A stretch of 64,000 nucleotides of DNA from Hyphomicrobiales bacterium (GTDB lineage Bacteria > Pseudomonadota > Alphaproteobacteria > Rhizobiales > Xanthobacteraceae). Positions 49,229 to 64,000 of this stretch are shown in pieces (position 1 is the stretch's first letter; the number at the start of each line of letters is the position of its first letter). Under the pieces are notes generated by a model. That model made no database searches. It was not told the DNA's origin and saw only the letters and a program-made list of their open reading frames with translations. Both the position numbers and the translations under genes were made by a program. The DNA lies in the NCBI GenBank assembly GCA_017305665.1, contig JAFKKH010000009.1, positions 1-64,000 on the forward strand, read 5' to 3'.

Positions 49229-49331
49229 CGCGACCTTCCTCCCCGACACAGGCGATTGATCTACGTCCACCATTCCGATTCGGCACGCCAAAAACCGCTT
49301 GACGATGGATATGGGAAGGGTCGATGCTGAA

Positions 49332-49357
49332 GTAAAGCTTTACAGTAATACATTACT
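49332..49357. promoter_or_regulatory. Two abutting perfect palindromes, putative GntR operator
   Basis: GTAAAGCTTTAC (49332-49343) is followed directly by AGTAAT-AC-ATTACT (49344-49357), ending 19 bases before the oxidoreductase ATG. FCD-type GntR proteins bind short AT-rich inverted repeats of this size, and the gene for one starts 104 bases away on the other side. The sites also argue against using the upstream in-frame start at 49299. Confidence 0.65.
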
Positions 49358-49376
49358 AATTCGATCCGGACTTCTC

Positions 49377-52300
49377 ATGGCACAGCGCATTGACGGCTAT
49401 TGCACGCTCTGCCGATCGCGGTGCGGTTCAACCACGGTCATCGAAGACGGCCGCATGGTCGGCGTCGAAAGCCTGCCGGGGCATCCGACCGGGGGCGCGT
49501 TGTGCGCCAAGGGCCGCGCAGCCCCCGAGATGGTGCACAGTCCCCGCCGTTTGACGAAGCCGCTACGGCGGACCGCGCCCCGGGATGCAGCCGATCCCGG
49601 CTGGGTCGAGATTTCCTGGAGCGAAGCGCTCGATGAAATCGCCAAACGGCTGGATGACATTCGCAGGGATTCCGGTGCCGAAGCTGTTGCCTTCGCCGTC
49701 ACCACGCCAAGCGGCACGCCGATGGTGGACAGTTTTGAATGGGTCGAGCGCTTCGTGCGCTGCTTCGGCAGTCCAAACCTGATTTATGCAGTTGAAGTGT
49801 GTGGCTGGCACAAGGACTACGCCCATGCCCTGACGTTCGGGCGCGGAATCGGATTTCCGGATTACGATCACGCCGACGCCATCGTCCTTTGGGGGCACAA
49901 TCCGGCCCGCACGTGGCTCGCTCAGGCGACCCGCATTGCAGATGCCCGCCGGCGCGGCGCGCGCGTCGCGGTGATCGATCCCAAACCCAACGGGTCCGGC
50001 CAGGACGCCGATATGTGGTTGCGGATACGTCCGGGCTCGGATGGTGCGCTGGCCATGGGTGCAATCCGCCACCTCATCGCGACAGGGACGTTGGACACCG
50101 ACTTCGTCGCACACTGGACCAACGGACCGCTGTTGGTCGATACCGCCACCGGCCGCTTTGTCCGCGCTGCTGACATCTGGAACGATCAGCCCCCGGATAT
50201 TTTCGTCGTGGTCAATTCACGCGGGATACCGCAACCCTGCGACACCCGGTCCATCCCGTCAGCCCCCGCCACCATCCAGTTGGACACTCGTGCGGCGCTG
50301 GTCGCGTGCGACGGCCGGACCATCCAGGCGGAGACGGCATTCCGTTTGCTTGCCGCGCAAGCGGCGCCCTTCACACCGCAGCGCGTTGCGGAGCTGACCT
50401 GGCTTAACACGGCCGACATTGTCGATTTCTATACGCTGTTCGAGGACCGCCCTCGCCTTGCCTACCATTCGTGGACGGGCGTCGGCCAGCACACCAATGC
50501 GACGGCGATCGAACGTGCGATCGCAACACTCTACGCCCTGACTGGCGCCTGCGATCGCCGTGGCGGAAACGTCTGGCCCGTTCCGCCACCAACCCGCAGC
50601 GTCAACGACTATGCATTACTGCCGCCGGAGCAGAGAGCCAAGGCGCTCGGTCTCGGCGAACTGCCGCTCGGACCGCCAAGCCGCGGTTGGATCACCGCGC
50701 GTGATTTCAGCCGTGCCGTGATTACAGGCGAGCCTTACCGCGTCCGCGCCTTGATGAGTTTCGGAACAAATTTCGTGGTCTCCCAGGGGCATTCATCGCG
50801 CAACCGGGACGCACTTCGCGCGCTCGACTTCCATGTCCATGTCGACATGTTCATGAATCCTACCGCCGAGAACGCGGATATCGTCCTGCCCGCCAACATG
50901 CCATGGGAACGCAACGCGTTGAAGATAGGCTTTGAGATTACGCAGGCTGCCGTCGAGACTATCCAGTTCCGTCCAAAAATGCTGCCGCAGCTTGGCGAGT
51001 GCAAGGCGGACTACGAGATCGCGTACGAGCTTGCGCTTCGGCTGGGTCTGGCAAACCAGTTCTTCGGAGGCGACATCGAAGCCGGCTGGAATCATCAACT
51101 CGAACCCCTCGGGACCAGCGTCGCAGAACTCCGGCGACATCCACGTGGCCTGCGGTTTCCGCAATCTTTCGGCTACGAAAAATATGCGGCCCCGGGGCGC
51201 GACTCCGCCGTGACCGGCTTTGCAACACCGACACGCCGAATCGAGATCTATTCGGAACTGATGCTCGATCACGGTTATCCTGCGCTCCCCGATCATGTCG
51301 AGCCGGCGGAAAGCCCGCTTGTACCGACAACCGACGCCCGCTTTCCACTGGTCCTGACCACTGCCAAGAGCGGTTGGTTCGTCCACAGTTCGCATAGGCA
51401 CGTCGCGTCGTTGCGCAAGAAATCGCCGGACCCCGCAGTCGAGATCAGCGCGACGCTTGCCGCGCGGCGCGGACTCCAGGACGGCGACTGGGCGATCGTG
51501 GAAACGGGCGCCGGTCAGGCCCGACTGCGCGTGCGATTGAACCACGCGCTGGACGATCGCGTGGTCATCGCCGAGTTCGGCTGGTGGGAGGATTGTCCAC
51601 CCATGGGACGCGACGCGATCCGGCCGACCGGACCTGCGACATCGAACATCAACGATATCCTGAGCGATAACCGCCGCGATCCGGTCAGCGGCTCCGTACC
51701 ATTACGCGCGACCACTTGCGATATTCGGAAGGATGAAACCGCGAGTCGGGGATATTGGACCGGTAGTCGTGCCTTCACTGTCACCGGCCTCCGCACCGAA
51801 GCTAGCGATGTCGTCGCGTTAACGCTCAAGCCGCGCGACTACGGCCCGCTGCCATCATTCCACCCCGGGCAGCATGTCGTCCTGCGGTTACCCGGCGTCG
51901 ACGCGTCTCGTGCCTATTCACTGACGGGTTGCGGGGATGGCGGAGACACCTTTTCAATCGCAGTAAAACGAAATCGCCTCATCGGATTGGAGCGCGACAA
52001 CACGATCGGGATCTCGTCGCGTATTCATGATCTGGCTTTGGGCGATGAAGTCCAGCTCGAAGCACCCGGCGGCATCTTCACACCGGCATTGGGTGGCGAT
52101 CGGCCGCTGATCTTCATCGCAGGCGGGATCGGCATTACTCCGTTCATGAGCCATCTCGAGACGCTGGCAGCAAGACAGCCGGCCAAACGAGTCGGAAAAG
52201 TTCTCTTGCTGTATGGATGCCGGAACGGCGCTGAGCATCCTTTCTCCCGGAGGCTGCGTGAACTGGCGAAATCGCTGCCACAACTCCGCCTCATAACGGC

Positions 52301-52781
52301 TTTCACCACCCCGCGCAGCGAGGATCTTTGTCCCGAGCACTTCAGCTACAAGGGACGGCTCGACCTGTCGGCGATCGATCCAATCCTGCCGGACCGGCCT
52401 CTTGTTTATATCTGCGGCTCGGCGGACTTCACGACATCGATGAAGGCACGTCTGGTGGAACGCGGTGTCCCGCGCATCGATATATTTTCCGAAAGCTTTG
52501 TATCCCCCACAGTCGTACCGAAAACTCTCAAGCCGCAGGTGGTTCACATCGCCGGCAGCGGCGAAAGCTTTCTCTGGTCGCCCGAGGCCGGGACATTGCT
52601 CGACGCCGCTCACGCGGCAGGGATTTCGTTGGCAAGTGGATGTCGCGTCGGCCAGTGCGAAAGCTGCGCCATGCGCATCGTCGACGGCGAAGCGGCGCAC
52701 CTCAACGGCTCGTCCGACACTCCCGGACAATGCCTGACCTGCCAAGCCGTGCCTCTCTCAAAGCTTACGCTCGCATCCTGA
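49377..52781 (+). CDS. Molybdopterin oxidoreductase fused to FAD/NAD(P)H reductase and [2Fe-2S] ferredoxin domains
   Basis: A 1134-residue self-contained redox enzyme. Residues 9-43 bind a [4Fe-4S] cluster (Cys9, Cys12, Cys16, Cys43, then KG). The Mo-bisPGD catalytic domain spans about 50-640; VEVCGWHKD offers Cys142 as likely Mo ligand. The dinucleotide-binding domain covers about 650-745. A ferredoxin-reductase-type FAD domain follows (RAYSLTG, about 845), then an NAD(P) domain (GGIGITPFMS, about 914). The C-terminal plant-type [2Fe-2S] domain has CRVGQCESC (about 1088) and a late Cys. No Tat signal is seen, so it is cytoplasmic. Electrons should flow NAD(P)H-FAD-[2Fe-2S]-[4Fe-4S]-Mo. The substrate is unknown. 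Confidence 0.9.
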   Translation: MAQRIDGYCTLCRSRCGSTTVIEDGRMVGVESLPGHPTGGALCAKGRAAPEMVHSPRRLTKPLRRTAPRDAADPGWVEISWSEALDEIAKRLDDIRRDSGAEAVAFAVTTPSGTPMVDSFEWVERFVRCFGSPNLIYAVEVCGWHKDYAHALTFGRGIGFPDYDHADAIVLWGHNPARTWLAQATRIADARRRGARVAVIDPKPNGSGQDADMWLRIRPGSDGALAMGAIRHLIATGTLDTDFVAHWTNGPLLVDTATGRFVRAADIWNDQPPDIFVVVNSRGIPQPCDTRSIPSAPATIQLDTRAALVACDGRTIQAETAFRLLAAQAAPFTPQRVAELTWLNTADIVDFYTLFEDRPRLAYHSWTGVGQHTNATAIERAIATLYALTGACDRRGGNVWPVPPPTRSVNDYALLPPEQRAKALGLGELPLGPPSRGWITARDFSRAVITGEPYRVRALMSFGTNFVVSQGHSSRNRDALRALDFHVHVDMFMNPTAENADIVLPANMPWERNALKIGFEITQAAVETIQFRPKMLPQLGECKADYEIAYELALRLGLANQFFGGDIEAGWNHQLEPLGTSVAELRRHPRGLRFPQSFGYEKYAAPGRDSAVTGFATPTRRIEIYSELMLDHGYPALPDHVEPAESPLVPTTDARFPLVLTTAKSGWFVHSSHRHVASLRKKSPDPAVEISATLAARRGLQDGDWAIVETGAGQARLRVRLNHALDDRVVIAEFGWWEDCPPMGRDAIRPTGPATSNINDILSDNRRDPVSGSVPLRATTCDIRKDETASRGYWTGSRAFTVTGLRTEASDVVALTLKPRDYGPLPSFHPGQHVVLRLPGVDASRAYSLTGCGDGGDTFSIAVKRNRLIGLERDNTIGISSRIHDLALGDEVQLEAPGGIFTPALGGDRPLIFIAGGIGITPFMSHLETLAARQPAKRVGKVLLLYGCRNGAEHPFSRRLRELAKSLPQLRLITAFTTPRSEDLCPEHFSYKGRLDLSAIDPILPDRPLVYICGSADFTTSMKARLVERGVPRIDIFSESFVSPTVVPKTLKPQVVHIAGSGESFLWSPEAGTLLDAAHAAGISLASGCRVGQCESCAMRIVDGEAAHLNGSSDTPGQCLTCQAVPLSKLTLAS

Positions 52782-52826
52782 CGGCCTTGAAGACTGAAAC
52801 ATCATGATAACTGGGGGAAATTTCAA

Positions 52827-54281
52827 ATGACTGATACCGTACACAAGGACATCGTTCCCGGCAAAGCGCCGTCCAATGCGAATTTCCTGGCTGGCTTTGC
52901 TCAACGCATGGTCGGCTTCGCCGAACGATGGTTTCCAGATGCCTACGTCTTCGTTCTCATCGCCGTGATCGTCGTCGCAGCGGGTGCAATCGTGCATGGC
53001 GGCTCGCCACTAGCCGTCAGCCGTGCCTTCGGCGACGGATTCTGGAATCTCATTCCATTCACGATGCAAATGGCGTTGATCGCGATCGGAGGATATGTGG
53101 TCGCTATGTCTCCAGCGGTCGCGGCAATCTTGCGCCGGCTCGCGGGCGTGCCAAAGACCGGACGCGGTGCAGTAGTCTTCGTCGGCGTGATCAGTATTCT
53201 TTTGTCTTTGCTGAACTGGGGACTAAGCCTGATCTTCTCGGGACTGCTGGTGCGTGAAATCGCACGACGCAAAGACATCAGGCTGGACTACCGGGCCGCA
53301 GGGGCAGCCGGCTATCTCGGCCTGGGCTGCGGGTTCACGCTCGGCATCACATCCTCCGCCGCGCAGTTGCAGGCAAATGCCGCCAGCATTCCGGCATCAC
53401 TCATGCCGATCACCGGGATCATCGGCTTCTCCGAAACGATCCTGACGTGGCAAAGCTTGTTGATCACCGCATTCGTTACCGTCCTGTCGGCCGCTATCTG
53501 CTACTTCACTGCACCGGCGCAGGCCGAGACAAAAACCGCCGAGGATCTCGGCGTGCCTCTCGATAATGATTCCATCGAGCCTCGCAAGCCGGCGCGTCCC
53601 GGCGATTTTCTCGAATTCAGCCCCATCCTGACGATCCTGATCGTCCTGCTGGCACTGGGCTGGCTGTGGCAGACGTTCCGCGCGGGCAACCCGCTCATCA
53701 CGCTCTCCGGCCTGAACACCTATAATTTCGTATTCCTGCTGCTGGGCATCCTGCTGCACTGGAGCCCGCGCAGCTTGCTCGAGGCATTCTCGAAGGCGAT
53801 GCCGAGCGTCTCAGGCGTGATCCTGCAGTTTCCCTTCTATGCCGGTATCGCGCAAATCTTGACGAAGGTCGTCAACGGCAAGGGCGTGACGCTGTCGGAT
53901 ACGATCGCGCACTGGTTCGTCGGCGCGTCCGCGAATTCCGCGGCATTCTCGTTCCTGGTCGGAATCTATTCGACAGTGCTCGGCTTTTTCATTCCCTCCG
54001 CCGGCGGCAAATGGGTTATCGAGGCTCCCTACATCATGAAGGCGGCCAATGAGATCCATGCCCATCTCGGCTGGACCGTGATGGTCTACAATATTGCCGA
54101 GACGCTGCCGAACTTCATAAATCCGTTCTGGATGCTGCCGCTGCTCGGCATCCTGGGCCTCAAGTCGAAGGATCTGATCGGCTATACGTCGGTGCAATTC
54201 TTCATTCATTTTCCGCTGGTCATGATCCTTGCCGCGGTTCTGATGACAACGTTCAGCTATCATCCGCCGATCCTGCCCTGA
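52827..54281 (+). CDS. Short-chain fatty acid transporter, AtoE family
   Basis: A 484-residue inner-membrane protein with about 12 hydrophobic helices. Family motifs are FAERWFPDAYVFVLIAVIVV (residues about 31-50), LLSLLNWGLSLIFSGLLVRE (about 125-144) and FIPSAGGKWVIEAPYI (about 390-405). AtoE-type permeases take up short-chain carboxylates such as acetoacetate or butyrate. It lies 45 bases after the molybdo-enzyme gene with GGGGGAA before ATG 52827, and is probably in the same GntR-controlled transcript. It suggests the molybdo-enzyme's substrate or product is a small carboxylate. Confidence 0.92.
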   Translation: MTDTVHKDIVPGKAPSNANFLAGFAQRMVGFAERWFPDAYVFVLIAVIVVAAGAIVHGGSPLAVSRAFGDGFWNLIPFTMQMALIAIGGYVVAMSPAVAAILRRLAGVPKTGRGAVVFVGVISILLSLLNWGLSLIFSGLLVREIARRKDIRLDYRAAGAAGYLGLGCGFTLGITSSAAQLQANAASIPASLMPITGIIGFSETILTWQSLLITAFVTVLSAAICYFTAPAQAETKTAEDLGVPLDNDSIEPRKPARPGDFLEFSPILTILIVLLALGWLWQTFRAGNPLITLSGLNTYNFVFLLLGILLHWSPRSLLEAFSKAMPSVSGVILQFPFYAGIAQILTKVVNGKGVTLSDTIAHWFVGASANSAAFSFLVGIYSTVLGFFIPSAGGKWVIEAPYIMKAANEIHAHLGWTVMVYNIAETLPNFINPFWMLPLLGILGLKSKDLIGYTSVQFFIHFPLVMILAAVLMTTFSYHPPILP

Positions 54282-54299
54282 GCGACCATTATAGATCGG

Positions 54300-55358
54300 A
54301 TGCCGAACCTAGCGGTCCGGTATCCGATCATGCCTTCGGCCAACGAACCGGGCGAGCATCTTGTGACCAGCAGCAAAAGTATATCTGTCATCGACGCCGA
54401 GCAGACCGCGCGCCTGCTGCCGATGGACGGCCTGATCGCCAATCTCCGGGCGTTTTTCATTGCGGGCTGCGAGGCGCCTCCCCGACACCACCATACAATT
54501 CATGTTCCGGGTGAGCCGGATGCGACGCTGCTCCTGATGCCGTCCTGGCAACCGAAATCCGACAGCGGCGGATACCTCGGCACCAAGCTTGTCACTGTGT
54601 TTCCCGGGAATTCCCGGCACGGAATGCCCGCTCTGACGTCCGTCTATCTTCTGTTTGACAGCGGCACAGGTGTTCAGCTCGCCGCAATCGACGGCAACAC
54701 CATTACGCTCCGGAGGACGGTCGCAACATCGGCACTCGCGGCGTCATTTCTGGCGCGTCGGGATGCCGAGTGCCTGCTTGTACTCGGATCCGGCCGGGTC
54801 GCGCGCCTGCTGCCCGAAGCTTACCGGGCTGTTCGCTCCATCAAAAAAATCAACATATGGAATATCAATCCAGACAGCGCGCTCAGGATGGCGCGGTCTC
54901 TCACCGATTCCGGCATCGAAGCCATCGTGGTATCCGACCTCGAACAAGGCGTCCGCTCCGCCGATATCGTCAGTGCGGCGACCCTGGCGACCGCGCCGCT
55001 GATCCGGGGAGAATGGCTTCGGCCGGGAACACATGTCGATCTGATCGGTGCATTTACCCCGAAGATGCGCGAAGCGGACGCAGAATCCGTACAGCGATCC
55101 GCCGTGTTCGTCGATACGATCGATGCCCTGCACGAGGCCGGCGATCTCGTCGACCCGATCCGGGAGGGCGTCTTTTCCGCCGATCTCCTAAAAGGTACCT
55201 TGGCCGATCCCTGCAACGGGAACGCTTGTGGACGAGCATCTCGCGAAGAAATCACGCTGTTCAAGGCCGTCGGCAGCGCGCTTGCAGACCTTGCGGCCGC
55301 CAGCATGGTTTACAAGGCCATTGAGGACTCGTCAGCGCCAACTCGCGTTGATATTTGA
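54300..55358 (+). CDS. Ornithine cyclodeaminase family protein, pyrroline-2-carboxylate reductase-like
   Basis: Up to 352 residues (ATG 54300; alternatives are ATG 54330 and GTG 54363, the last fitting the family start better). It is an OCD/mu-crystallin fold enzyme with PRHHHTIHVPGEPDATLLLM (split by domain around residue 60-80), YLGTKLVTVFPGN, a substrate/cofactor region starting AAIDGNTITLRRTVA, and a Rossmann motif LVLGSGRVARLLPEAYRAVR. The HHHT...PGEPDATLLLMP pattern is that of NAD(P)H-dependent delta1-pyrroline-2-carboxylate/piperideine-2-carboxylate reductases (LhpI group) rather than true ornithine cyclodeaminase. It would reduce a cyclic imine to an L-imino acid. It starts 19 bases after the transporter gene. 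Confidence 0.85.
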   Translation: MPNLAVRYPIMPSANEPGEHLVTSSKSISVIDAEQTARLLPMDGLIANLRAFFIAGCEAPPRHHHTIHVPGEPDATLLLMPSWQPKSDSGGYLGTKLVTVFPGNSRHGMPALTSVYLLFDSGTGVQLAAIDGNTITLRRTVATSALAASFLARRDAECLLVLGSGRVARLLPEAYRAVRSIKKINIWNINPDSALRMARSLTDSGIEAIVVSDLEQGVRSADIVSAATLATAPLIRGEWLRPGTHVDLIGAFTPKMREADAESVQRSAVFVDTIDALHEAGDLVDPIREGVFSADLLKGTLADPCNGNACGRASREEITLFKAVGSALADLAAASMVYKAIEDSSAPTRVDI

Positions 55359-55485: not shown

Positions 55486-56550
55486 ATGGCTGAAAGCAAT
55501 CTTCGCGACACAGTCACGACGGTGTCGATCATCACTGGATTTCTCGGCAGCGGTAAAACGACATTGATGCGTAATTTATTGCGCGATCCGGTGATGAAAA
55601 ATGCGGTCGTTATTGTTAACGAGTTCGGTGAAATCGGCCTTGATCATCAGCTTATGGATATCGATGGCCAGAATGTAGTGCTTCTGGAAAGCGGCTGCAT
55701 TTGCTGCTCACTCGACGGCAGCCTCGTTGAAACGCTGGAAACCCTGCACCAGCGGCGGCGCGCCGGCAGGATTCCGTCATTCGAACGAGTGTTGATCGAA
55801 ACCACCGGTATCGCCGACCCTGCCCCGCTAATTCATGAATTGTTCGACAACCGCGCCGTTCGTCTCGGTGTAAAACTCGACCGCATCATTACGCTGGTCG
55901 ATGCTGCAAGTGGATGGGCGACGCTGGATCGGCACGACATCTCCGTCCGGCAGGTCGCATTGGCAAACAGTATTCTTGTCAGCAAGGCCGACCTTGTGCC
56001 CCCTGAGGCGGTCGCGCAACTGACTGCACGATTGACCGCAATCAATCCCAGCGCTCCGATCTTGCGGTCGGACAACGGCGTCACCGAAGTCGGCGCACTT
56101 TTCGATGATCGTCACGATATGATGTTCGGCGACATTCCGGTGAGATTGGCGCCGAAAGATCGGACACCGCACGCCCACGATCACCACCATCACGACCGCA
56201 TCTCGACGGAAGCGATACGTTTCATCGATCCGCTTCCGCTCGACGGCTTCAACACCTGGCTCGAACAAACCATTGCTGCTTATGGCGACGACCTACTGCG
56301 GATCAAGGGTATTCTCAATATTGAGGGCCGCTCCCGCCCCGTCGTGATCCATGGGGTGCAACGTGTCTTCCACCCGGCCGTCGAACTGGATTCATGGCCC
56401 GATGCAGACAGGTCATCGCGACTGGTCTTCATTCTCCACGACATATCGGGGAACGATCTTATACGCTCCCTGCGGCGAGCGGTCGCACCGCACGACACGG
56501 CGCCGGTCACGGCGAGGATGTCGGCGACATCGTCGCCGTATCCATCCTGA
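55486..56550 (+). CDS. CobW/COG0523 family GTPase metallochaperone
   Basis: A 354-residue G3E GTPase. Walker A is GFLGSGKTT (residues 18-26), the metal-binding motif is GCICC (Cys71, Cys73, Cys74), and base recognition is SKAD. A His-rich loop (HAHDHHHHD) and a C-terminal CobW domain (LRIKGILNIEGRSRPVVIHG) complete it. Family members insert or traffic Zn, Co, Ni or Fe. In this context it may metallate the amidohydrolase or another enzyme of the region. ATG 55486 follows a GGAGGCG site. It converges on ridA. Confidence 0.93.
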   Translation: MAESNLRDTVTTVSIITGFLGSGKTTLMRNLLRDPVMKNAVVIVNEFGEIGLDHQLMDIDGQNVVLLESGCICCSLDGSLVETLETLHQRRRAGRIPSFERVLIETTGIADPAPLIHELFDNRAVRLGVKLDRIITLVDAASGWATLDRHDISVRQVALANSILVSKADLVPPEAVAQLTARLTAINPSAPILRSDNGVTEVGALFDDRHDMMFGDIPVRLAPKDRTPHAHDHHHHDRISTEAIRFIDPLPLDGFNTWLEQTIAAYGDDLLRIKGILNIEGRSRPVVIHGVQRVFHPAVELDSWPDADRSSRLVFILHDISGNDLIRSLRRAVAPHDTAPVTARMSATSSPYPS

Positions 56551-56586: not shown

Positions 56587-56979
56587 CTATGCCTTCTCGT
56601 CGACAGCAGCGATCATGATCATTTCGAGCTTCAGCTCGGGTTGCGTCAGACGCGCCTGAAAGCAGGCGCGTGCAGGCGGATTTTTCTGGTCGATCCAGCC
56701 ATCCCATACCGCATTGACAGAGTCGAAGTCCGCCATGTCGGCAAGAAGGATTGCAACGAACAACAGATGCGAACGGCTGCTTCCGAGTTTATCGAGGCGC
56801 CCTTGTGCTTTTTCAAATAGCTGCCTGCACTGCTCGGCGGCGCTCAAATTTCCATCGTAGGGCGCCAGCGGCGTTACGGCGAAATAGATCGTGTCCTTGT
56901 ACCGAACGCCCATACTCATGCGCGGGCTACCGTCCAGCCGCTGAATGATATCTTCAAGGCTCGCAGGCGTGTTTGCCAC
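56587..56979 (-). CDS. RidA family enamine/imine deaminase
   Basis: A 130-residue YjgF/YER057c/UK114 protein. It keeps the substrate-carboxylate-binding Arg in PPARACFQARLTQPELKLEM (Arg near 103) and the C-terminal Glu. RidA proteins hydrolyse reactive 2-imino acids, released by PLP enzymes or D-amino acid oxidases, to keto acids and ammonia. It lies downstream of marR on the same strand, 37 bases apart. It faces an operon that encodes an imine-producing FAD dehydrogenase, which is a sensible pairing. Confidence 0.9.
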   Translation of the reverse strand: MANTPASLEDIIQRLDGSPRMSMGVRYKDTIYFAVTPLAPYDGNLSAAEQCRQLFEKAQGRLDKLGSSRSHLLFVAILLADMADFDSVNAVWDGWIDQKNPPARACFQARLTQPELKLEMIMIAAVDEKA

Positions 56980-57016: not shown

Positions 57017-57502
57017 TCAGTCTTCGGCTTCCGCTACAGCCTTGAGTTTGTTGATGACGGCGTCGAGTACCCTGCGCTCGTCGATCGTGAGATGCTTGAG
57101 TAGCGCCAACTGGGCACGACGCGCGTTCGGCATGATCTGCTGATAAAGCTTGAGGCCTCGCTCCGTGATTTGCAGGACGTGCCGCAGTTCATGCGTTTCG
57201 TCCTGCGTGCGCTGCACCAGCCTGCGCTTCTCCAACCCCAGCAGCGCCCGGCTCATCTGTCCCTTGTCCATCTTTGACGCATCACGCAACGCCCGTGTGG
57301 TTCCGGCTCCGTAACGCACGAGCATTGTCAGCACACGCCATTCGGGAAGGCTGATCTCATGTTCCAGCAGATAACGTCTGGTGCTGACGCGGAGAAGCAG
57401 CGCACTGAGGTTGGTGATCCTCATGCTCAGAAAGTCGTCGACTTCCAGATTACCGCCATCCCCGCCCGGCTTGATCCAGTTTTGCACGTTCGACTTTACC
57501 AA
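57017..57502 (-). CDS. MarR family transcriptional regulator
   Basis: A 161-residue winged-helix regulator with LPEWRVLTMLVRYGAGTTRA (residues about 53-72), the recognition region LRDASKMDKGQMSRALLGLE (about 73-92) and a wing around THELRHVLQITERG. It probably forms dimers and represses its divergent target until a ligand is present. It is divergent from the ABC/amidohydrolase/dehydrogenase operon, with a candidate operator in the 186-base gap, and followed by ridA. Confidence 0.92.
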   Translation of the reverse strand: MVKSNVQNWIKPGGDGGNLEVDDFLSMRITNLSALLLRVSTRRYLLEHEISLPEWRVLTMLVRYGAGTTRALRDASKMDKGQMSRALLGLEKRRLVQRTQDETHELRHVLQITERGLKLYQQIMPNARRAQLALLKHLTIDERRVLDAVINKLKAVAEAED

Positions 57503-57574
57503 TGCGATCTCCTTAAACTAATCCGCGCATCCGCAGGGCATAAATCACCCGCCGAACGCGAGACTGCCCGAGAA

Positions 57575-57602
57575 CTATAGTTTAATTGCAATAGCGTTGA
57601 CA
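57575..57602. promoter_or_regulatory. Candidate MarR operator and -35 box
   Basis: A 20-base imperfect palindrome with ends CTATAG and CAATAG (57575-57594), immediately followed by TTGACA (57597-57602), a consensus -35 element pointing toward the operon. A weak -10 (CATTCT) falls at 17-base spacing. A repressor bound here would block the promoter. Confidence 0.45.
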
Positions 57603-57688
57603 ACACAACACTTGTCCGACATTCTTTCATTTATGGGGCATTAGACCTCACAGTAAATAGTCATCTGCTGGAGAGGAAAATACAGATC

Positions 57689-58708
57689 ATGACCTTGGCT
57701 AAAAGCAATTATCTGCACATTGCATTGTCGGCCGCGGTAGCATTTTTCGGATGGAGTGCGGCTCACGCAGCCGACACTGTTCGCGTCGGTGTCTTTCAGT
57801 CAATTTCCGATGCCGGTATTTATATTGCCGATGAAAAGGGCTACTTCGCCGAGCAGGGTATTCACGTCGAGCTTCAGCGTGTCAGCTCCGCGTCAACCGT
57901 GACGACAGCGTTGGCAAGCGGCGATCTTGACGTATCTGGGGGATCCCCTTCTGCCAGTATCTACAATGCAATCCGCCAGGGCGTACCGATCGAAATCGTC
58001 GCAGACAAAGGCAGTACGCATCCCGGCCACGGCTATCTCGCCTTCATGGTGCGCAAGGAACTCGCCGACAAGATCAAGAAGCCGGAAGATCTGCGTGGCA
58101 GGACACTCGCTGCGACGGGCTATGCGGCCGGATCCACCAATGAAGTAGCGGTCCACCATCTTCTCATGTCCGGCGGCGTCAAGTCGAACGAGGTCAAGAT
58201 CGTCGCGATGGCGTTCCCCGACGTCATGACCAGTCTCGGCACCGGAAGTGTCGATGCCGGCATTCTTATCGAACCACTGGTGACGCTGGCAGTCGAAAAA
58301 GGCATCGCCGTGGTCTGGAAGCGGGCCGACGAGGTCTATCCGTCGCAACAATATGCCGCCGTGCTGTACGGGCCCGGCATGACCAAGCGCCACGATGTCG
58401 GTGTTCGCTTCATGACGGCATATCTCAAAGGCGTTCGCTTCTACAACGATGCACTGAAGGGCAAGATTCCACGCAAGGAATTGATCGACATCCTAACCAA
58501 AAACACCTCGGTGAAGACCGCCGCTCTATATGACAAGATGGCACTGCCCGGTCTCGATCCGAACGGCGCCCTCAACATCAAGGGTATGGAAGACGACATG
58601 GCGTGGTTCTTGAAGGAAGGCCGCATGAAGGAGCCGGTGGATATCAAAAAGATTGTTAACACGTCCTATGTTGATGCCGTCATCGGCAAGCTTGGAGTCT
58701 ATAAATGA
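57689..58708 (+). CDS. ABC transporter substrate-binding protein, NMT1/SsuA-TauA type
   Basis: A 339-residue periplasmic protein with a signal peptide (MTLAKSNYLHIALSAAVAFF ... AHA, cleavage near 27). The two-lobed fold starts VRVGVFQSISDAGIYIADEK and has GYFAEQGIHVELQRVSS and ASGDLDVSGGSPSASIY. The class binds nitrate, sulfonates, pyrimidines or small amines. It is the first gene of the operon; the ATPase and permease partners are the sixth and seventh genes. Its stop overlaps the next start (ATGA). Confidence 0.92.
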   Translation: MTLAKSNYLHIALSAAVAFFGWSAAHAADTVRVGVFQSISDAGIYIADEKGYFAEQGIHVELQRVSSASTVTTALASGDLDVSGGSPSASIYNAIRQGVPIEIVADKGSTHPGHGYLAFMVRKELADKIKKPEDLRGRTLAATGYAAGSTNEVAVHHLLMSGGVKSNEVKIVAMAFPDVMTSLGTGSVDAGILIEPLVTLAVEKGIAVVWKRADEVYPSQQYAAVLYGPGMTKRHDVGVRFMTAYLKGVRFYNDALKGKIPRKELIDILTKNTSVKTAALYDKMALPGLDPNGALNIKGMEDDMAWFLKEGRMKEPVDIKKIVNTSYVDAVIGKLGVYK

Positions 58709-59928
58709 GTCCGGCCGAAGGCCCAATCCTGATCGAGCGCGCCCGCTGCTTCGATGGCACCAAGGTGCTGCCAGAACGGGTCGATATTTATCTTGACGGT
58801 GGCCGTATCGCATGGGTGGGCTCTGGCTCCGCGGCACCGGATGCGCGACGGATCAAAGCCGGCGACCGACTAGTGATGCCGGGCCTGATCGACACCCACG
58901 TCCATCTCGAAAGTCCCGCGGTGCCCGATCGCACCGGCTACGTGGTGAGGACACCAGAACCGCTGATGGCATTCTACGCGGCATACAATGCCCGCCTGAC
59001 GCTGGAAGCAGGCTTCACCACGCTGCGCAACATGGGCTCCAACGCCTCGGTAGCACTACGCAACGCCATCGACCGCAACCTGATCGAAGGTCCTCGCATC
59101 CTCACCGGAGGCGTCGTCGACATGACCGGCGGTCACTTCGATTTGTTCCGGCCGCTGATTTATCCAAGGCAGCCGGAAGACACCGCCGATGGCGAGGCGT
59201 CGGTGCGGCAGGCGGTGCGACGTCATGTTCGTGCCGGAGTCGATTTCATCAAGATTGCGACCACCGGCGGCATCGCATCGGAAGGCGACGATTCGGACTG
59301 GGTGACCTACAGTGAAACCGAGATCGCCGCGATTTGCGACGAGGCGCACAACCTCAAGCGTCACGTCGCCTGCCATGCCCAAGGCACCGCAGGCATCAAA
59401 CGCGCGCTCGGCGCCGACATCGATACGCTGGAACACGGTACCTTCATGGATGCCGAGGGCTTGCAAATGCTGCTGCGCAGCCGGGCGATCCTGATGCCGA
59501 CGCTATCGTTCTTCCACGGTGTCGTGACACGTGGCCGTGCGCTGAACCTGCCGGCGCATTGGCAGGAGAAGTGTGGTCCAGCCTATGAGGCCGCTAAGGC
59601 CACCGTGCGTATGGCCCGGGCTGCCGGCGTGCGTATCGCCTATGGCACCGACTCAGCGGGACGGCACGCGCCACATGGCGACAACGCCGTCGAACTCGCC
59701 CTGATGGTCGAGCTTGGCTACACGCCGGAGCAGATGCTGGTGGCGGCGACCAGCGATGCTGCCGCCGCGATCGGCCTGGGTGCAGAAACCGGCCGCATCG
59801 CGCCCGGCCTCTCGGCGGACGTGCTGCTGATCAACGGCGATCCCCTCACCGACATCGCGCTCTTGCAGGACAAGTCCTGTATTGAACAGATCATCTTGCG
59901 CGGCCGTGTCGCGGTGGACCGGACATGA
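58705..59928 (+). CDS. Metal-dependent amidohydrolase (imidazolonepropionase/Xaa-Pro dipeptidase-like)
   Basis: A 407-residue TIM-barrel amidohydrolase. It shows a binuclear-metal site: DTHVHLE (His65, His67), carboxylatable Lys183 in FIKIATTGG, His224 (ACHAQG), His244 (LEHGTF) and Asp316 (YGTDSAG). The LIEGPRILTGG and APGLSADVLLINGDP motifs are those of the group holding Xaa-Pro/Xaa-Arg dipeptidases and related cyclic-amide hydrolases. No signal peptide is present. Within the operon it would cleave the imported compound before oxidation. Both ends overlap neighbouring genes by four bases. The exact bond is unknown. Confidence 0.9.
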   Translation: MSPAEGPILIERARCFDGTKVLPERVDIYLDGGRIAWVGSGSAAPDARRIKAGDRLVMPGLIDTHVHLESPAVPDRTGYVVRTPEPLMAFYAAYNARLTLEAGFTTLRNMGSNASVALRNAIDRNLIEGPRILTGGVVDMTGGHFDLFRPLIYPRQPEDTADGEASVRQAVRRHVRAGVDFIKIATTGGIASEGDDSDWVTYSETEIAAICDEAHNLKRHVACHAQGTAGIKRALGADIDTLEHGTFMDAEGLQMLLRSRAILMPTLSFFHGVVTRGRALNLPAHWQEKCGPAYEAAKATVRMARAAGVRIAYGTDSAGRHAPHGDNAVELALMVELGYTPEQMLVAATSDAAAAIGLGAETGRIAPGLSADVLLINGDPLTDIALLQDKSCIEQIILRGRVAVDRT

Positions 59929-60236
59929 CAACGACAAACACAAGTGCCCGGATCGATAGTGGCATCCAGCGCGGCGCACAGTTCCGCATCACCATCGACG
60001 GCGAGAGCATCATCGCGTTCGAGGGCGAGACCGTCGCGGCAGCCTTGATCGCAGCCGGCCATCGCACCTTGCGTTATTCGACCAAGCGCAAGGAGCCGCG
60101 CTCGCTCTATTGCGGCATCGGCGTGTGCCAGGAATGCCGCATGATGATCGACGGCGTCATCAATACACGCGCCTGCATGACGCCGGCTCGCGCGGGCATG
60201 ACCGTCAAGACGCAGCACGGCATCGGCGAGTACTGA
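59925..60236 (+). CDS. [2Fe-2S] subunit of heterotrimeric FAD dehydrogenase (HcnA/LhpF/OoxA-N-like)
   Basis: A 103-residue small ferredoxin-like subunit. Its plant-type cluster ligands are Cys63, Cys68, Cys71 and Cys84 (CGIGVCQEC, then TRACMT). Proteins of this size and motif are the gamma subunits of D-hydroxyproline dehydrogenase, opine oxidases and hydrogen cyanide synthase. The start overlaps the amidohydrolase stop (ATGA), and the next gene starts two bases after its stop, so subunit stoichiometry is probably coupled. Confidence 0.92.
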   Translation: MTTTNTSARIDSGIQRGAQFRITIDGESIIAFEGETVAAALIAAGHRTLRYSTKRKEPRSLYCGIGVCQECRMMIDGVINTRACMTPARAGMTVKTQHGIGEY

Positions 60237-60238
60237 CG

Positions 60239-61642
60239 ATGCCTGCCAATCACGTCGAACTCGCCATTGTCGGCGCAGGCCCCGCAGGCTTGGCCGCAGC
60301 GCTGGAAGCCAAAGCTGCCGGCGTCGATGCCGTGGTCTTCGATGAGAACGAGCAGCCGGGCGGCCAGATCTTCCGGCAACCGCCTGCGTCGTTCCGCGTT
60401 GTCGATAAAAGCCGAATGGGCCGCGACTACACTCGCGGACGCAGACTGCTGGAAGCGGTTGCAGCCGCCGATATCCGGATTGAGAACGGCGTCACGGTAT
60501 GGAACGTCGCACCGGATCACCTTGCATGCTATCGCGACGACCGGTCATGGAATATCAAGAGCGATGCCATCATTCTTGCGACCGGCGCTTACGATCGCCC
60601 GGTACCCCTGCCCGGCTGGACCTTGCCGGGCGTCTTCACCTCGGGTGGCGTCCAGACCCTGCTGAAAAGCCAGCGGGTGCTGGCCGGCCGGCGTGTCCTG
60701 CTGGCCGGGACCGGCCCGCTCAATCTGGTGCTGGCCAACCAACTCGCCGAAGCCGGCGCCGACGTCGTCGCCGTGCTGGAACTAGCTAACCCGAACCTGT
60801 TCGAACTGATGCCCATGGCGATGGGGCCATGGGAGCTTTTGTTCGACGGCATCGACTACGTCACCCAGCTTGCCCGCCGCAAAATTCCGCTGATGCGCGG
60901 CTGGACCTTGCTGGAAGCGCGCGGCACGGATCAGGTCGAAGCCGCGGTGATCGGACGTGTCGATCGCGATTGGCGCACGATCAAGGGCAGCGAGCGAACA
61001 CTTGACGTCGATACGATCTGTCTCGGTTACGGTCTGGTACCCTCCACCGAACTGTCGCGGCTGATCGGCTGCGCGCATCGCTACGATGCCCAGCTTGGTG
61101 GCTGGATTCCGACGCATGATCGTTACCGGGAGACCAGCATTCAATCAGTGTTCGTCGCAGGCGATGGCTCCGGCGTCGCCGGGTCGCTGGTCGCGATGGA
61201 GGAAGGCCGTCTCGCTGGCTTGCGCGCGGCATGGCGCCTGCAAAAGATCGACGATAGTAGTTTCCATCACAAAGCTGCGCCGATTCTGAAACGGCTGCAT
61301 CAACTCGGCCGTTTCCGTACCGTGCTCGACGGCCTATCAGCGCCGCGTCCGGGATTGTTCGAGCGAATGACCGACGACACGGTGATTTGCCGATGCGAGG
61401 AAGCTTCCTACGGCGACTGCCGCAAGGCTGTCAGCGAAGGCGCGGTTTCGCTCATGGAACTGAAACCTTCGCTACGTGCGGGCATGGGCATGTGCCAATC
61501 GCGGATTTGCGGCCCCACGCTGGTGGAGGTCGTCGCGCGGCTGACCGGGCGTCCGCAGGAGGCTATCGCGCCGTTTAGCGTGCGGCCTCCGGTCAAGCCG
61601 ATTCCGATGTCTGCGCTGCTTAACCAGGATGCTGCCGAATGA
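60239..61642 (+). CDS. FAD/NAD(P)-binding oxidoreductase subunit with C-terminal BFD-like [2Fe-2S] domain
   Basis: A 467-residue alpha subunit (LhpE/HcnB/OoxA-like). Features are an FAD motif IVGAGPAGLAAALEA (about residues 10-24), NEQPGGQIFRQ, a second dinucleotide-binding fold VLLAGTGPLNLVLANQLAEA (about 153-172), and FVAGDGSGVAGS (about 304-315). The C-terminal bacterioferritin-associated-ferredoxin-like cluster is formed by Cys384, Cys386, Cys419 and Cys424. The start ATG 60239 comes right after the small subunit. Together with the neighbours it should form an alpha-beta-gamma dehydrogenase that feeds electrons to the respiratory chain. Confidence 0.93.
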   Translation: MPANHVELAIVGAGPAGLAAALEAKAAGVDAVVFDENEQPGGQIFRQPPASFRVVDKSRMGRDYTRGRRLLEAVAAADIRIENGVTVWNVAPDHLACYRDDRSWNIKSDAIILATGAYDRPVPLPGWTLPGVFTSGGVQTLLKSQRVLAGRRVLLAGTGPLNLVLANQLAEAGADVVAVLELANPNLFELMPMAMGPWELLFDGIDYVTQLARRKIPLMRGWTLLEARGTDQVEAAVIGRVDRDWRTIKGSERTLDVDTICLGYGLVPSTELSRLIGCAHRYDAQLGGWIPTHDRYRETSIQSVFVAGDGSGVAGSLVAMEEGRLAGLRAAWRLQKIDDSSFHHKAAPILKRLHQLGRFRTVLDGLSAPRPGLFERMTDDTVICRCEEASYGDCRKAVSEGAVSLMELKPSLRAGMGMCQSRICGPTLVEVVARLTGRPQEAIAPFSVRPPVKPIPMSALLNQDAAE

Positions 61643-62781
61643 CGGAAATCTCCGGATTCGATGTTGCAGTGATCGGTGGCGGCGTTATCGGAGCGGCCAT
61701 CGCTTACCACGCGGCCAAGCGAGGCATGTCGGTCGGCCTGTTTGAAAAAGGTCCACTGGCCGCCGGCGCCTCCGGCGCGTCAATGGGCTTACGTTCGATT
61801 TGGGTATGGTCGCACCTGTTGCCGATCGAGAGCGGGCTACGCAACGACCAGCGTTTCATCGATTTCGCCGATGAGACCGGCGAGGATATCGAACTCGATA
61901 CCAGCGGCCGGATCATCACGGCGAATTCGGAGGACGATCTCGGCTACATGCACGACTTCGTCGAACGATTGCAAAAGCGCGGTATTGAAATTCGCCTGCT
62001 CGATCAGGCCGAGATCAGGGATGTCGAACCAAACCTTTCACCGCGGGTGATCGGCGCGGCGTGGAGCCCGATCGGCGGTAATGCCATGCCGATCAAATTG
62101 ACCTACGCACTAGCGCGAGCCGCCAAGCGCCTCGGCGCATCGATCTATACGCATACGCCTGTCACCGCCGTCCATGTTGCCGGAGGGCAGGCCGTCGGCG
62201 TTCAGGCCGGCGGGCGCAGCTACAAGGCACAGTGGGTCGTAAATGCGGCCGGCGCGTGGTGCAAGGCTATCGGAAAGATGGCCGACGTCGAGGTGCCGGT
62301 GGCGCCACGCAAGGGGCAGATCATGCTGCTGAATGCACCAGCTGGCCTGCTGCGTCATGGTATCGCTTCCTTGCACAAACCGGGCCCGCAACAGACCGGG
62401 GGCACAAATATCCGGCCGACGCCGCATGGCCAAATCCTTTGCGGAGGCACCAGCGAATATGCGGACTTCGATGTCACCGCGCGCGAGCAGAACATCCATG
62501 ACATCGCACGGCGGTGCGTTGAACTGGTTCCCGCACTGGCGCACCTGTCCGTCCTGCGCAGCTGGGCCGGCGTCAGGCCGCGCACCGCCGACGGCGAATT
62601 CATTATCAGCGGCTCGGAAAAGCTCGACAACTTTCTGATCGCGACCGGACATGATTTCGTCGGCGTCACGCATTCACTGGTGACAGGTGAGCTCATTACC
62701 GAAATGATGATCGACGGCAAGACCTCGACCCCGATCGATGCATTCCGGTTGAGCCGATTCGACACAGAACCGAACCGCTGA
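61639..62781 (+). CDS. DadA-like FAD-dependent oxidoreductase, catalytic subunit
   Basis: A 380-residue beta subunit (LhpB/HcnC/OoxB-like) of the D-amino acid dehydrogenase/sarcosine oxidase fold. It has FAD motif VAVIGGGVIGAAIAYH (residues about 9-24), GASGASMGLRS, a substrate-domain stretch PIGGNAMPIKLTYALARAAK, and C-terminal GVRPRTADG and GHDFVGVTHS. It probably oxidises a secondary amine or D-imino acid to an imine. The ATG overlaps the upstream stop by four bases. Confidence 0.93.
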   Translation: MTEISGFDVAVIGGGVIGAAIAYHAAKRGMSVGLFEKGPLAAGASGASMGLRSIWVWSHLLPIESGLRNDQRFIDFADETGEDIELDTSGRIITANSEDDLGYMHDFVERLQKRGIEIRLLDQAEIRDVEPNLSPRVIGAAWSPIGGNAMPIKLTYALARAAKRLGASIYTHTPVTAVHVAGGQAVGVQAGGRSYKAQWVVNAAGAWCKAIGKMADVEVPVAPRKGQIMLLNAPAGLLRHGIASLHKPGPQQTGGTNIRPTPHGQILCGGTSEYADFDVTAREQNIHDIARRCVELVPALAHLSVLRSWAGVRPRTADGEFIISGSEKLDNFLIATGHDFVGVTHSLVTGELITEMMIDGKTSTPIDAFRLSRFDTEPNR

Positions 62782-62799
62782 CCTTCGGAGTTTTGTCAC

Positions 62800-63609
62800 G
62801 TGCCGCTTGAACGCCCCCAGACCGTAATAAATTCCGGCAAGCCTGCCGGTAAGATCAGCATCCGCAATCTCGGAAAATCCTTCTCACTCGGGGAGACCAA
62901 AGTCACCGCGTTGACCAACGTCAATTTGGAGGTCGATGCTGGGGAGTTTATCTGCATCGTCGGTCCGTCCGGATGCGGAAAGACGACATTGCTGCGCATT
63001 CTTGCCGAGCTGGAGGCGCCAACCCAGGGCGAGGTGCTGATCTCGCGCGACAACCCCGCCGTTCCACTGAGCTCAATGATCTTTCAGGAGTCGTCGATCT
63101 TTCCGTGGATGACGATCCGCAACAACGTCGCCTATGGCTTGAAACTGCGCAACGTTCCGCAGACCGAAATCGACCGAACTGTCGATCATTTCATGAAGCT
63201 CGCCGGGCTGGATGGCTTTGCCGATGCCTACCCGCATCAATTGTCCGGCGGCATGAAGCAGCGCGCCAGCGTCGCACGTGCATTTTCCAACGATCCGGAA
63301 ATCCTGCTGATGGACGAGCCGTTCGCCGCGCTCGACGAGCAGAACAAGGCGCTGCTGCAGGAAGAGCTGCTGAGAATCTGGAGCGAGACGCAGAAGACAG
63401 TCGTGTTCATCACCCACTCGATCGACGAAGCACTGGTGCTGAGCGACCGGGTGCTCGTGATGTCGGGCCGGCCCGGCACGCTCAAGGCGGAATTCAAGGT
63501 CGACTTCCCGCGGCCACGCCGGGTCTACGACCTGAAGGCCGACCCCACCTTCGGCAAGCTCGGGCGGGATATCTGGATGCTGCTGCGGGAGGAGGTCACG
63601 GGACAATGA
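62800..63609 (+). CDS. ABC transporter ATP-binding protein, nitrate/sulfonate/taurine type
   Basis: A 269-residue ATPase from GTG 62800. It has Walker A GPSGCGKTT (about residues 54-62), Q-loop FQESSIFPWM, signature LSGGMKQRASVARA (about 148-161), Walker B LLMDEPFAALD and H-loop ITHSIDEAL. It energises import of the ligand bound by the operon's first gene product. Its stop overlaps the permease start (ATGA). Confidence 0.95.
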   Translation: MPLERPQTVINSGKPAGKISIRNLGKSFSLGETKVTALTNVNLEVDAGEFICIVGPSGCGKTTLLRILAELEAPTQGEVLISRDNPAVPLSSMIFQESSIFPWMTIRNNVAYGLKLRNVPQTEIDRTVDHFMKLAGLDGFADAYPHQLSGGMKQRASVARAFSNDPEILLMDEPFAALDEQNKALLQEELLRIWSETQKTVVFITHSIDEALVLSDRVLVMSGRPGTLKAEFKVDFPRPRRVYDLKADPTFGKLGRDIWMLLREEVTGQ

Positions 63610-64000
63610 TCGTTTCATCCAACGATATGGTGCGCATCACCGCCGATCAGGACAAGACGGCATCGCCCTTGAGCCGCCTGTTGCGCTCTGACGCCTTCGC
63701 CAGCATCGCCTCCCCTATCGTCATTCTGCTGCTTTGGGAGGCGCTGGTGCGCGGGCATTTGCTCGATGCGCGCTTCTTCCCCGCACCGTCTTCGGTGATC
63801 GTCGAGCTGATTACGCTGATCCACTCCGGCCAGATATTCATCGACATCGCCTGGACGGTCTCTCGCGTGCTGATCGGTACGCTGCTCGGCGCCATTCCGG
63901 GCCTGATCTTCGGCGTGTTGCTCGGGCTGTCGCCTGTCATACGGATGTTCGTCCAACCTGCGATTTCCGCGCTCTACCCGATCCCGAAGATCGCGCTGTT
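63606..64000 (+). CDS. ABC transporter permease, nitrate/sulfonate/taurine type (3' partial)
   Basis: The first 131 codons of an inner-membrane permease, cut by the window end. It starts MIVSSNDMVRITADQDKTA and continues with a membrane helix (IASPIVILLLWEALVRG), FFPAPSSVIVELI, the SRVLIGTLLGAIPGLIFGVL segment, and PAISALYPIPKIAL, the family's conserved loop before the ATPase-contact region. The ATG overlaps the ATPase stop, and the operon may continue beyond the window. Confidence 0.93.
   Translation, partial: MIVSSNDMVRITADQDKTASPLSRLLRSDAFASIASPIVILLLWEALVRGHLLDARFFPAPSSVIVELITLIHSGQIFIDIAWTVSRVLIGTLLGAIPGLIFGVLLGLSPVIRMFVQPAISALYPIPKIAL

Follow-up and report, generated by a model that had tools for sequence, protein, structure and literature searches.

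A putative MarR-controlled regulon for an amide-linked amino compound, joining an ABC importer, an amidohydrolase and a three-subunit flavin dehydrogenase in a member of the Xanthobacteraceae

Here we describe a run of genes at the end of a 64,000-nucleotide stretch of DNA (the window) from the Hyphomicrobiales bacterium assembly GCA_017305665.1, in which a MarR-family repressor gene faces an operon for an ABC importer, an amidohydrolase and an alpha-beta-gamma flavin dehydrogenase. Coordinates follow the numbering of the window, continued beyond position 64000 along the same 228-kb contig (JAFKKH010000009.1). The genes probably import an amide-linked amino compound, cut the amide and oxidise the released amine, and "import, hydrolyse, oxidise" is a plausible account of the design. 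For the more specific proposal, that MarR controls a catabolic regulon whose substrate, an N-acyl or peptide-linked amino acid, is taken up from outside, we put the chances at about even. The three steps are suggested by gene families and neighbourhood, and the operator and the conservation of the block can be read in the sequence itself. An earlier note on this DNA had proposed a single pathway of import, hydrolysis and oxidation; its MarR gating, its kind of dehydrogenase and its amidohydrolase within the operon hold up, and a neighbouring RidA gene fits an imine product, whereas the imported compound, the order of the steps and the amine as substrate are things we only infer.

The MarR-family gene (57017..57502, minus strand, TTG start; PF12802/PF01047 above cut-off) is followed by seven plus-strand genes, whose families are those named in the earlier note. 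They encode SBP1, an NMT1/THI5-type periplasmic binding protein (57689..58708; PF09084); the amidohydrolase (58705..59928; Amidohydro_1 family); the [2Fe-2S] gamma subunit (59925..60236; PF13510, Fer2_4); the alpha subunit, an FAD protein with a BFD-like [2Fe-2S] domain (60239..61642, ATG start; PF07992 (Pyr_redox_2), PF04324 (Fer2_BFD) and PF17806 (SO_alpha_A3)); the beta subunit, a DAO-family FAD protein (61639..62781; PF01266, 253 bits); the transporter ATPase (62800..63609, GTG start; PF00005); and the permease (63606..64439, running past the window end at 64000), which was assigned from its place and its 88% identity to a syntenic gene in the second genome described below. The tight packing reported earlier was confirmed: four junctions are ATGA overlaps, and the remaining gaps measure 2 bases (gamma stop to alpha ATG) and 18 bases (before the ATPase GTG).

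A search for the same gene order among the sampled genomes found it in one other, Rhizobiales bacterium 62-47 (G047; loci L035/L038). The common order is cobW-RidA-MarR-SBP1-amidohydrolase-gamma-alpha-beta-ATPase-permease-LysR-ferredoxin-cupin, with identities of 63-88% (85% for MarR, 81% for SBP1 and 87% for the ATPase). Several genes here lay outside the earlier description. Upstream are a CobW-type GTPase (55486..56550, plus strand; start approximate, the ORF opening at GTG 55426 with an ATG at ~55486; PF02492 + PF07683), which 62-47 has at the matching position with 63% identity, and a RidA/L-PSP family protein, a candidate imine deaminase (56587..56979, minus strand; PF01042), 82% identical and syntenic there, whose gene is separated by 37 bases from the MarR gene on the same strand. 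Beyond the window end are genes for a LysR protein (64520-65416, minus strand), a [2Fe-2S] ferredoxin (65451-65831), a ChrR-like cupin (65873-66283), a second NMT1 binding protein, SBP2 (66628-67644), and an isochorismatase-family hydrolase (67786-68505, minus strand) convergent with SBP2. For 12 gene pairs between the two genomes (10 block genes, SBP2 and the isochorismatase-family gene, with gamma, cobW and ferredoxin left out) dN/dS was 0.04-0.10, at a dS of 1.3-2.4, near saturation. Because the order recurs in a second genome and dN/dS is this low, the gene run goes beyond chance association.

The intergenic region between MarR and SBP1 is poorly conserved between the window and 62-47 apart from one block, which in 62-47 is a perfect palindrome, AAGTGTTG-N6-CAACACTT. 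The window version, at 57592..57613 between the divergent genes, has two changes; this imperfect palindrome is our predicted operator, with the core GTTGACA-N3-CAACAC over a TTGACA (-35-like) box. A scan of the contig's initial 84 kb with the 62-47 palindrome, allowing up to three mismatches, gave one additional site, a second predicted operator at 66471-66492 within the gap of 344 bases upstream of SBP2, and the same scan on five mononucleotide shuffles gave no sites. The core, defined as what is common to three sites (two in the window's contig, one in 62-47), was searched in five whole genomes with at most one mismatch. Its two matches in the window's genome (G000) are both exact and are the two sites just given. 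Genome 62-47 has three matches, of which two are exact, one preceding MarR/SBP1 and the other, on a different contig, preceding a gene whose identity to SBP2 is 88-90%, and the third, on C5, carries a mismatch. Three congeners without the block (G003, G005 and G006) have no exact match and 0, 1 and 1 with one mismatch. As a control, the core read backwards gave 1, 1, 1, 2 and 0 matches within one mismatch in G000, G003, G005, G006 and G047, and base composition predicts about 0.08 exact core matches per genome. Since the other three sites shaped the core, the fourth, before the SBP2-like gene of 62-47, counts as an independent success. SBP2 and the isochorismatase-family gene are paired in both genomes (the latter at 78-79% identity), though unlinked from the main block in 62-47. 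At all four sites TTGACA is followed after 17 bases by a weak -10-like hexamer (CATTCT, TACGCT, CATGCT or TACGCT), and a protein bound to the palindrome would therefore cover the -35-like box. The exact core, present twice in each genome before MarR/SBP1 or SBP2, indicates a regulon at the level of sequence, and position and co-conservation make the MarR protein the presumed binder of the palindrome. The gating proposed earlier is thus borne out by a palindrome common to the promoters of both genomes, with MarR as its putative binding protein.

Motifs and trees likewise place the dehydrogenase among the three-subunit enzymes of the opine dehydrogenase/D-hydroxyproline dehydrogenase (D-HypDH) kind to which it had been assigned. 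PMC4575208 gives, for the alpha-beta-gamma family (OdhABC, D-HypDH), the motifs GxGxxG, gamma CX4CX2CX11-12C, alpha CXCX15-20CX4C and beta R-X-W. In the window the GxGxxG ADP motif occurs at both N-termini (GAGPAG at alpha 14, with alpha residues numbered from CTG 60233, and GGGVIG at beta 13), the gamma subunit has CX4CX2CX12C from residue 63, and the beta subunit has RSW at residue 307, the proposed FMN site, as does OoxB. The second [2Fe-2S] motif of alpha is CXC-X32-CX4C; OoxA likewise has X32, and both lie outside the X15-20 printed in PMC4575208, where the gene order OdhC-A-B of B. thailandensis matches the gamma-alpha-beta order of the window. The trees comprised 27 alpha and 31 beta rows, with L205, a near-duplicate of L186, left out and with OdhABC, heterotrimeric D-HypDH and HcnABC not among them. 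Alpha falls in a six-row clade (support 100/99) without OoxA, together with L185 (Variovorax plasmid), L219 (Paracoccus aminophilus), L172 (genome G087, of the same family as the window) and L039 (a betaproteobacterium). In the beta tree the window joins L172 and L039 at 88/82, below the starred level, with L185 and L219 elsewhere and OoxB in a different, 12-row clade (100/100); neither subunit belongs to the octopine oxidase clade. The imine product expected of such an enzyme fits the adjacent RidA gene.

An amide hydrolase is encoded nearby in four of the five alpha-clade loci (the window and 62-47 counted once) versus 3 of the 21 other annotated loci, a post hoc contrast (Fisher p 0.010) on loci that were not randomly drawn. 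At L039:14258-20883 and L172:9701-16380, in the betaproteobacterium and the member of the window's own family, the flavin dehydrogenase is joined with an ATP-dependent lactamase/hydantoinase-family enzyme in the order beta-gamma-alpha-CapA-like-CapB-like-GntR. The CapA-like and CapB-like proteins of the two loci are 63% and 65% identical, and those of L039 score 570 and 321 bits in NCBIfam, below the caprolactamase cut-offs of 1000. At L185:9566-12532, on a plasmid of Variovorax sp. PDNC026, gamma, alpha and beta are fused into one 988-aa ORF (Fer2_4, Pyr_redox, BFD, DAO); upstream on the other strand are genes for a binding protein and for a D-hydantoinase (534 bits against an equivalog cut-off of 393). 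Two further sources were set aside: a structure model of beta, built from three sequences (mean pLDDT 43), and, as a D-HypDH anchor, an unannotated Sinorhizobium meliloti pSymB stretch with a beta-like match and no alpha or gamma. Of the literature consulted, a paper on riboflavin catabolism (PMC12746152) had no bearing on the locus, and one on COG0523 (PMC2770081) served for background.

The amidohydrolase has the fold and the family-conserved residues of the prolidase/Arg-carboxypeptidase/ochratoxin-hydrolase group, which we take to be COG1228; these residues include HxH, K, H, H and D, presumably the metal ligands. The fold comparison excluded no family on absence. Its relatives of known structure include Cc2672 (3mtw), 3be7, the Xaa-Pro dipeptidase 2qs8 and the ochratoxin hydrolase ADH3 (8ihq), from which it differs in lying in a dehydrogenase/ABC operon beside CobW; its best match outside the pair is 43% identical. 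It scored 277.8 bits against a cut-off of 500 for the Xaa-Pro dipeptidase equivalog (NF051886) and 35.5 against 393.25 for D-hydantoinase/dihydropyrimidinase (TIGR02033), in both cases below the cut-off. Both carrier genomes encode it within the operon, with the residues typical of its family. CobW genes occur near amidohydrolase homologues at 10 of 90 loci (6/80 at E 1e-10 and 4/10 at E 1e-6; L038, which is 62-47 itself, L039, L050, L053, L073, L111, L167, L168, L169 and L171) and near beta at 0 of 10, a difference that is not significant against so small a control (Fisher p 0.33). A chaperone-client link between the CobW GTPase and the amidohydrolase is thus a possible lead.

Taken together, these features suggest the following scheme. 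The gene run and the separately promoted SBP2 lie under the same operator over a -35-like box, where the regulator most likely keeps both promoters shut until a ligand lifts it off. SBP1 or SBP2 would deliver the compound to the ABC importer. The amidohydrolase, which is probably cytoplasmic and may receive its metal from the CobW protein, would then cut an amide beside a free carboxylate, in the manner of its relatives of solved structure (prolidases, Arg/Lys carboxypeptidases and ochratoxin hydrolases). Oxidation by the dehydrogenase would turn the freed amino acid, which may be N-substituted, cyclic or of the D form, into an imine, and the electrons would reach the respiratory chain through the enzyme's FAD, FMN and FeS groups. 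Hydrolysis of this imine by RidA would yield a keto acid together with ammonia or an amine. Genes for LysR, ferredoxin and cupin travel with the block, with no step assigned to them in this scheme.

Several observations weigh against this interpretation. Orthologues are confined to two genomes, so the linkage of hydrolase and dehydrogenase amounts to one independent pair. Among 200 relatives the amidohydrolase has a match at E 1e-30 in 70, with more than 40% identity only in the window's genome and 62-47 (86%), and beta has a match at E 1e-40 in 16, with more than 36% identity only in the same two (88%); one comparison of relatives left out rows with a stop or with 320 or fewer matched query positions and kept 136. 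At E 1e-50, of 385 genomes sampled from the class only the window's own has a beta match. At E 1e-55 the amidohydrolase is found in 13 of 391 genomes of the family and 39 of 398 of the phylum, samples that overlap in part, with nothing new above 43% identity. A scan of named genomes for the amidohydrolase, which uses exact short patterns and may miss intermediate orthologues, matched at least 593 stretches, at least 364 of them from relatives; among the 80 loci retained one is 86% identical (MKVX01000011.1, of 62-47) and the others at most 40%. Plasmid searches, in which close relatives of the window's genome may be missing, showed no place of at least 60% identity for the amidohydrolase, beta or alpha. 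Outside the pair the best identities (43% for the amidohydrolase, 38% for beta) are too distant for transfer of a substrate, and the NCBIfam scores of the amidohydrolase, alpha and beta fall below curated cut-offs. An alpha or beta match lies near the amidohydrolase at only two of its 90 loci, L038 and L039 (in the latter ~7 kb off and on the other strand). Finally, the isochorismatase gene and the hydantoinase and CapAB neighbours of the related dehydrogenases partly suggest cyclic ureides or lactams.

We compared the operon with 22 annotated plasmid loci of alpha homologues, hand-chosen from search matches (one search alone gave 401 records); L205 is counted in this census, two unannotated fetched records fall outside it, and the PLSDB gene tables used are incomplete. 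Within 8 kb of the dehydrogenase, ABC transporter genes occur at 18 of the 22 loci (at one as a binding protein only), RidA at 11, an ornithine-cyclodeaminase (OCD)-family gene at 2 and an amidase or hydantoinase/oxoprolinase at 3, and at none of the 22 is there an annotated amidohydrolase. Given these counts of transporters and RidA, and the octopine operon among the loci, the combination of ABC importer, three-subunit dehydrogenase and RidA is an already known opine-type design, to which the present locus adds the amidohydrolase, CobW, the MarR operator and a doubled binding protein. For the expectation that the amidohydrolase stays with the dehydrogenase the outcome is mixed: it is upheld in the only orthologous cluster found (1/1), against 0 of the 22 census loci and 2 of the 90 amidohydrolase loci. 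No description of the gene combination or the shared operator was found in the titles and abstract openings of the open-access papers searched, a collection with few subscription papers.

Beyond the preferred interpretation, a wider reading is possible if doubtful: that the operon represents an as yet undescribed class of catabolic module in which one dehydrogenase clade is combined with interchangeable amide hydrolases (prolidase-type here, CapAB-like at L039/L172, hydantoinase at L185) to turn amides or ureides into imines, with a MarR two-locus regulon, two binding proteins for one importer, and as substrate an amide-linked natural product or xenobiotic with no known pathway. A rather unlikely alternative is a cyclic ureide or lactam route resembling creatinine/N-methylhydantoin breakdown, in which ring opening by the amidohydrolase would give an N-carbamoyl amino acid or the like, to be freed of its carbamoyl group by the isochorismatase-family hydrolase and then oxidised by the dehydrogenase. 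The retention of the isochorismatase-family gene beside SBP2 in both genomes, at the 78-79% identity given above, agrees with this, as do its named matches, among them RutB (57 bits) and N-carbamoylsarcosine amidohydrolase (56 bits), although the RutB model gives 87 bits against a cut-off of 378; the nearest dehydrogenase sets, moreover, precede CapAB-like lactamase-family genes or adjoin a D-hydantoinase. The known pathway, as presented in PMC8864220, comprises a hydantoinase, an N-carbamoylsarcosine amidase and a heterotetrameric, multi-subunit sarcosine oxidase. Common to it and to the proposed window route is the logic of first cutting an amide and then oxidising the N-substituted amino acid so released with a flavin enzyme, and a hydrolase of the isochorismatase family is again close by. 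The window differs from that account in having an amidohydrolase of another group, which itself speaks against the ureide route, and a three-subunit dehydrogenase; no creatininase was recognised among its annotated genes.

It is unlikely that the locus is a true opine-type operon, in which an opine-like secondary amine would be imported and go first to the dehydrogenase, with the amidohydrolase acting on a later or side intermediate. The skeleton is that of the octopine operon of Agrobacterium Ti plasmids (occQMPT-ooxB-gamma-ooxA-RidA-ocd; L198), with its ABC importer, three-subunit dehydrogenase, RidA and OCD-family gene, and an OCD-family gene also lies upstream in the window (NF004793, 423 bits against 322). 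That gene, however, has no match at E 1e-20 in 62-47, and the window's alpha and beta, 30% and 25% identical to their octopine counterparts, fall outside the OoxA/OoxB clade. The octopine operon has no amidohydrolase, CobW or cupin among its listed features, a lack of amidohydrolase common to the whole census, and no SBP1 or SBP2 match; its regulator, OccR, is of the LysR type, in contrast to MarR here. Proline salvage, with the amidohydrolase as a prolidase, the dehydrogenase converting (D-)proline-type amino acids to delta-1-pyrroline-2-carboxylate and a reductase (54300-55358) making L-proline, is improbable: the best matches include prolidase structures, of which 3n2c carries a prolyl phosphonate, the reductase exceeds its equivalog cut-off, and the second-best PDB sequence match of beta is 1y56_B (named sarcosine oxidase there, presumably the archaeal L-proline dehydrogenase), but a prolidase would release L-proline, not D-proline, and the reductase, having no match at E 1e-20 in 62-47, lies outside the conserved system and was rejected as a core member.

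The operon lies in an island-like stretch of ~26 kb (~43100 to 69283) beside tRNA-Pro(CGG) (69284-69360) that is missing at that place in 62-47, where the matches to window positions 40.1-43.1 kb are ~3 kb, against ~26 kb in the window's genome, from tRNA-Pro(CGG) and its adjoining gene. In the fetched stretches of G003, G005 and G006 the genes on the tRNA-Pro side are present, no block gene exceeds 50% identity, and the 40-43 kb genes were not found either. Between 55 and 69 kb the G+C content of 1-kb windows is 0.54-0.65, against 0.63 in the flanks, with minima over MarR (57-58 kb) and over SBP2 and isochorismatase (66-69 kb). No integrase is among the annotated genes of the ~26 kb, and exact repeats of at least 14 bases of the 3' part of tRNA-Pro (offsets every 2 bases) were absent from the 84 kb; integration is therefore not proved. 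Within the same stretch, 49299-55358 carries a 1160-aa molybdopterin oxidoreductase fused to a NAD-binding/ferredoxin reductase module, with a short-chain-fatty-acid-type transporter and the above reductase close behind. In 62-47 the operon adjoins a block of IclR, ferredoxin reductase, Rieske oxygenase and glutamine-synthetase-like genes (L035:2945-8493), which in the window's genome is on another contig (L196:5557-10779; 61-87% identical). It was rejected as part of the pathway: Rieske matches at E 1e-80 or better occur in 66 of 200 relatives, and the adjacency is not specific.

If the preferred reading is right, the locus would illustrate in compact form how adding a hydrolase might open a new substrate to an opine-type dehydrogenase operon. 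The CobW GTPase and the amidohydrolase may form a chaperone-client pair. The shared operator offers a handle by which to name an uncharacterised pathway: whatever ligand frees both palindromes of the regulator is likely to be the substrate or its first product.

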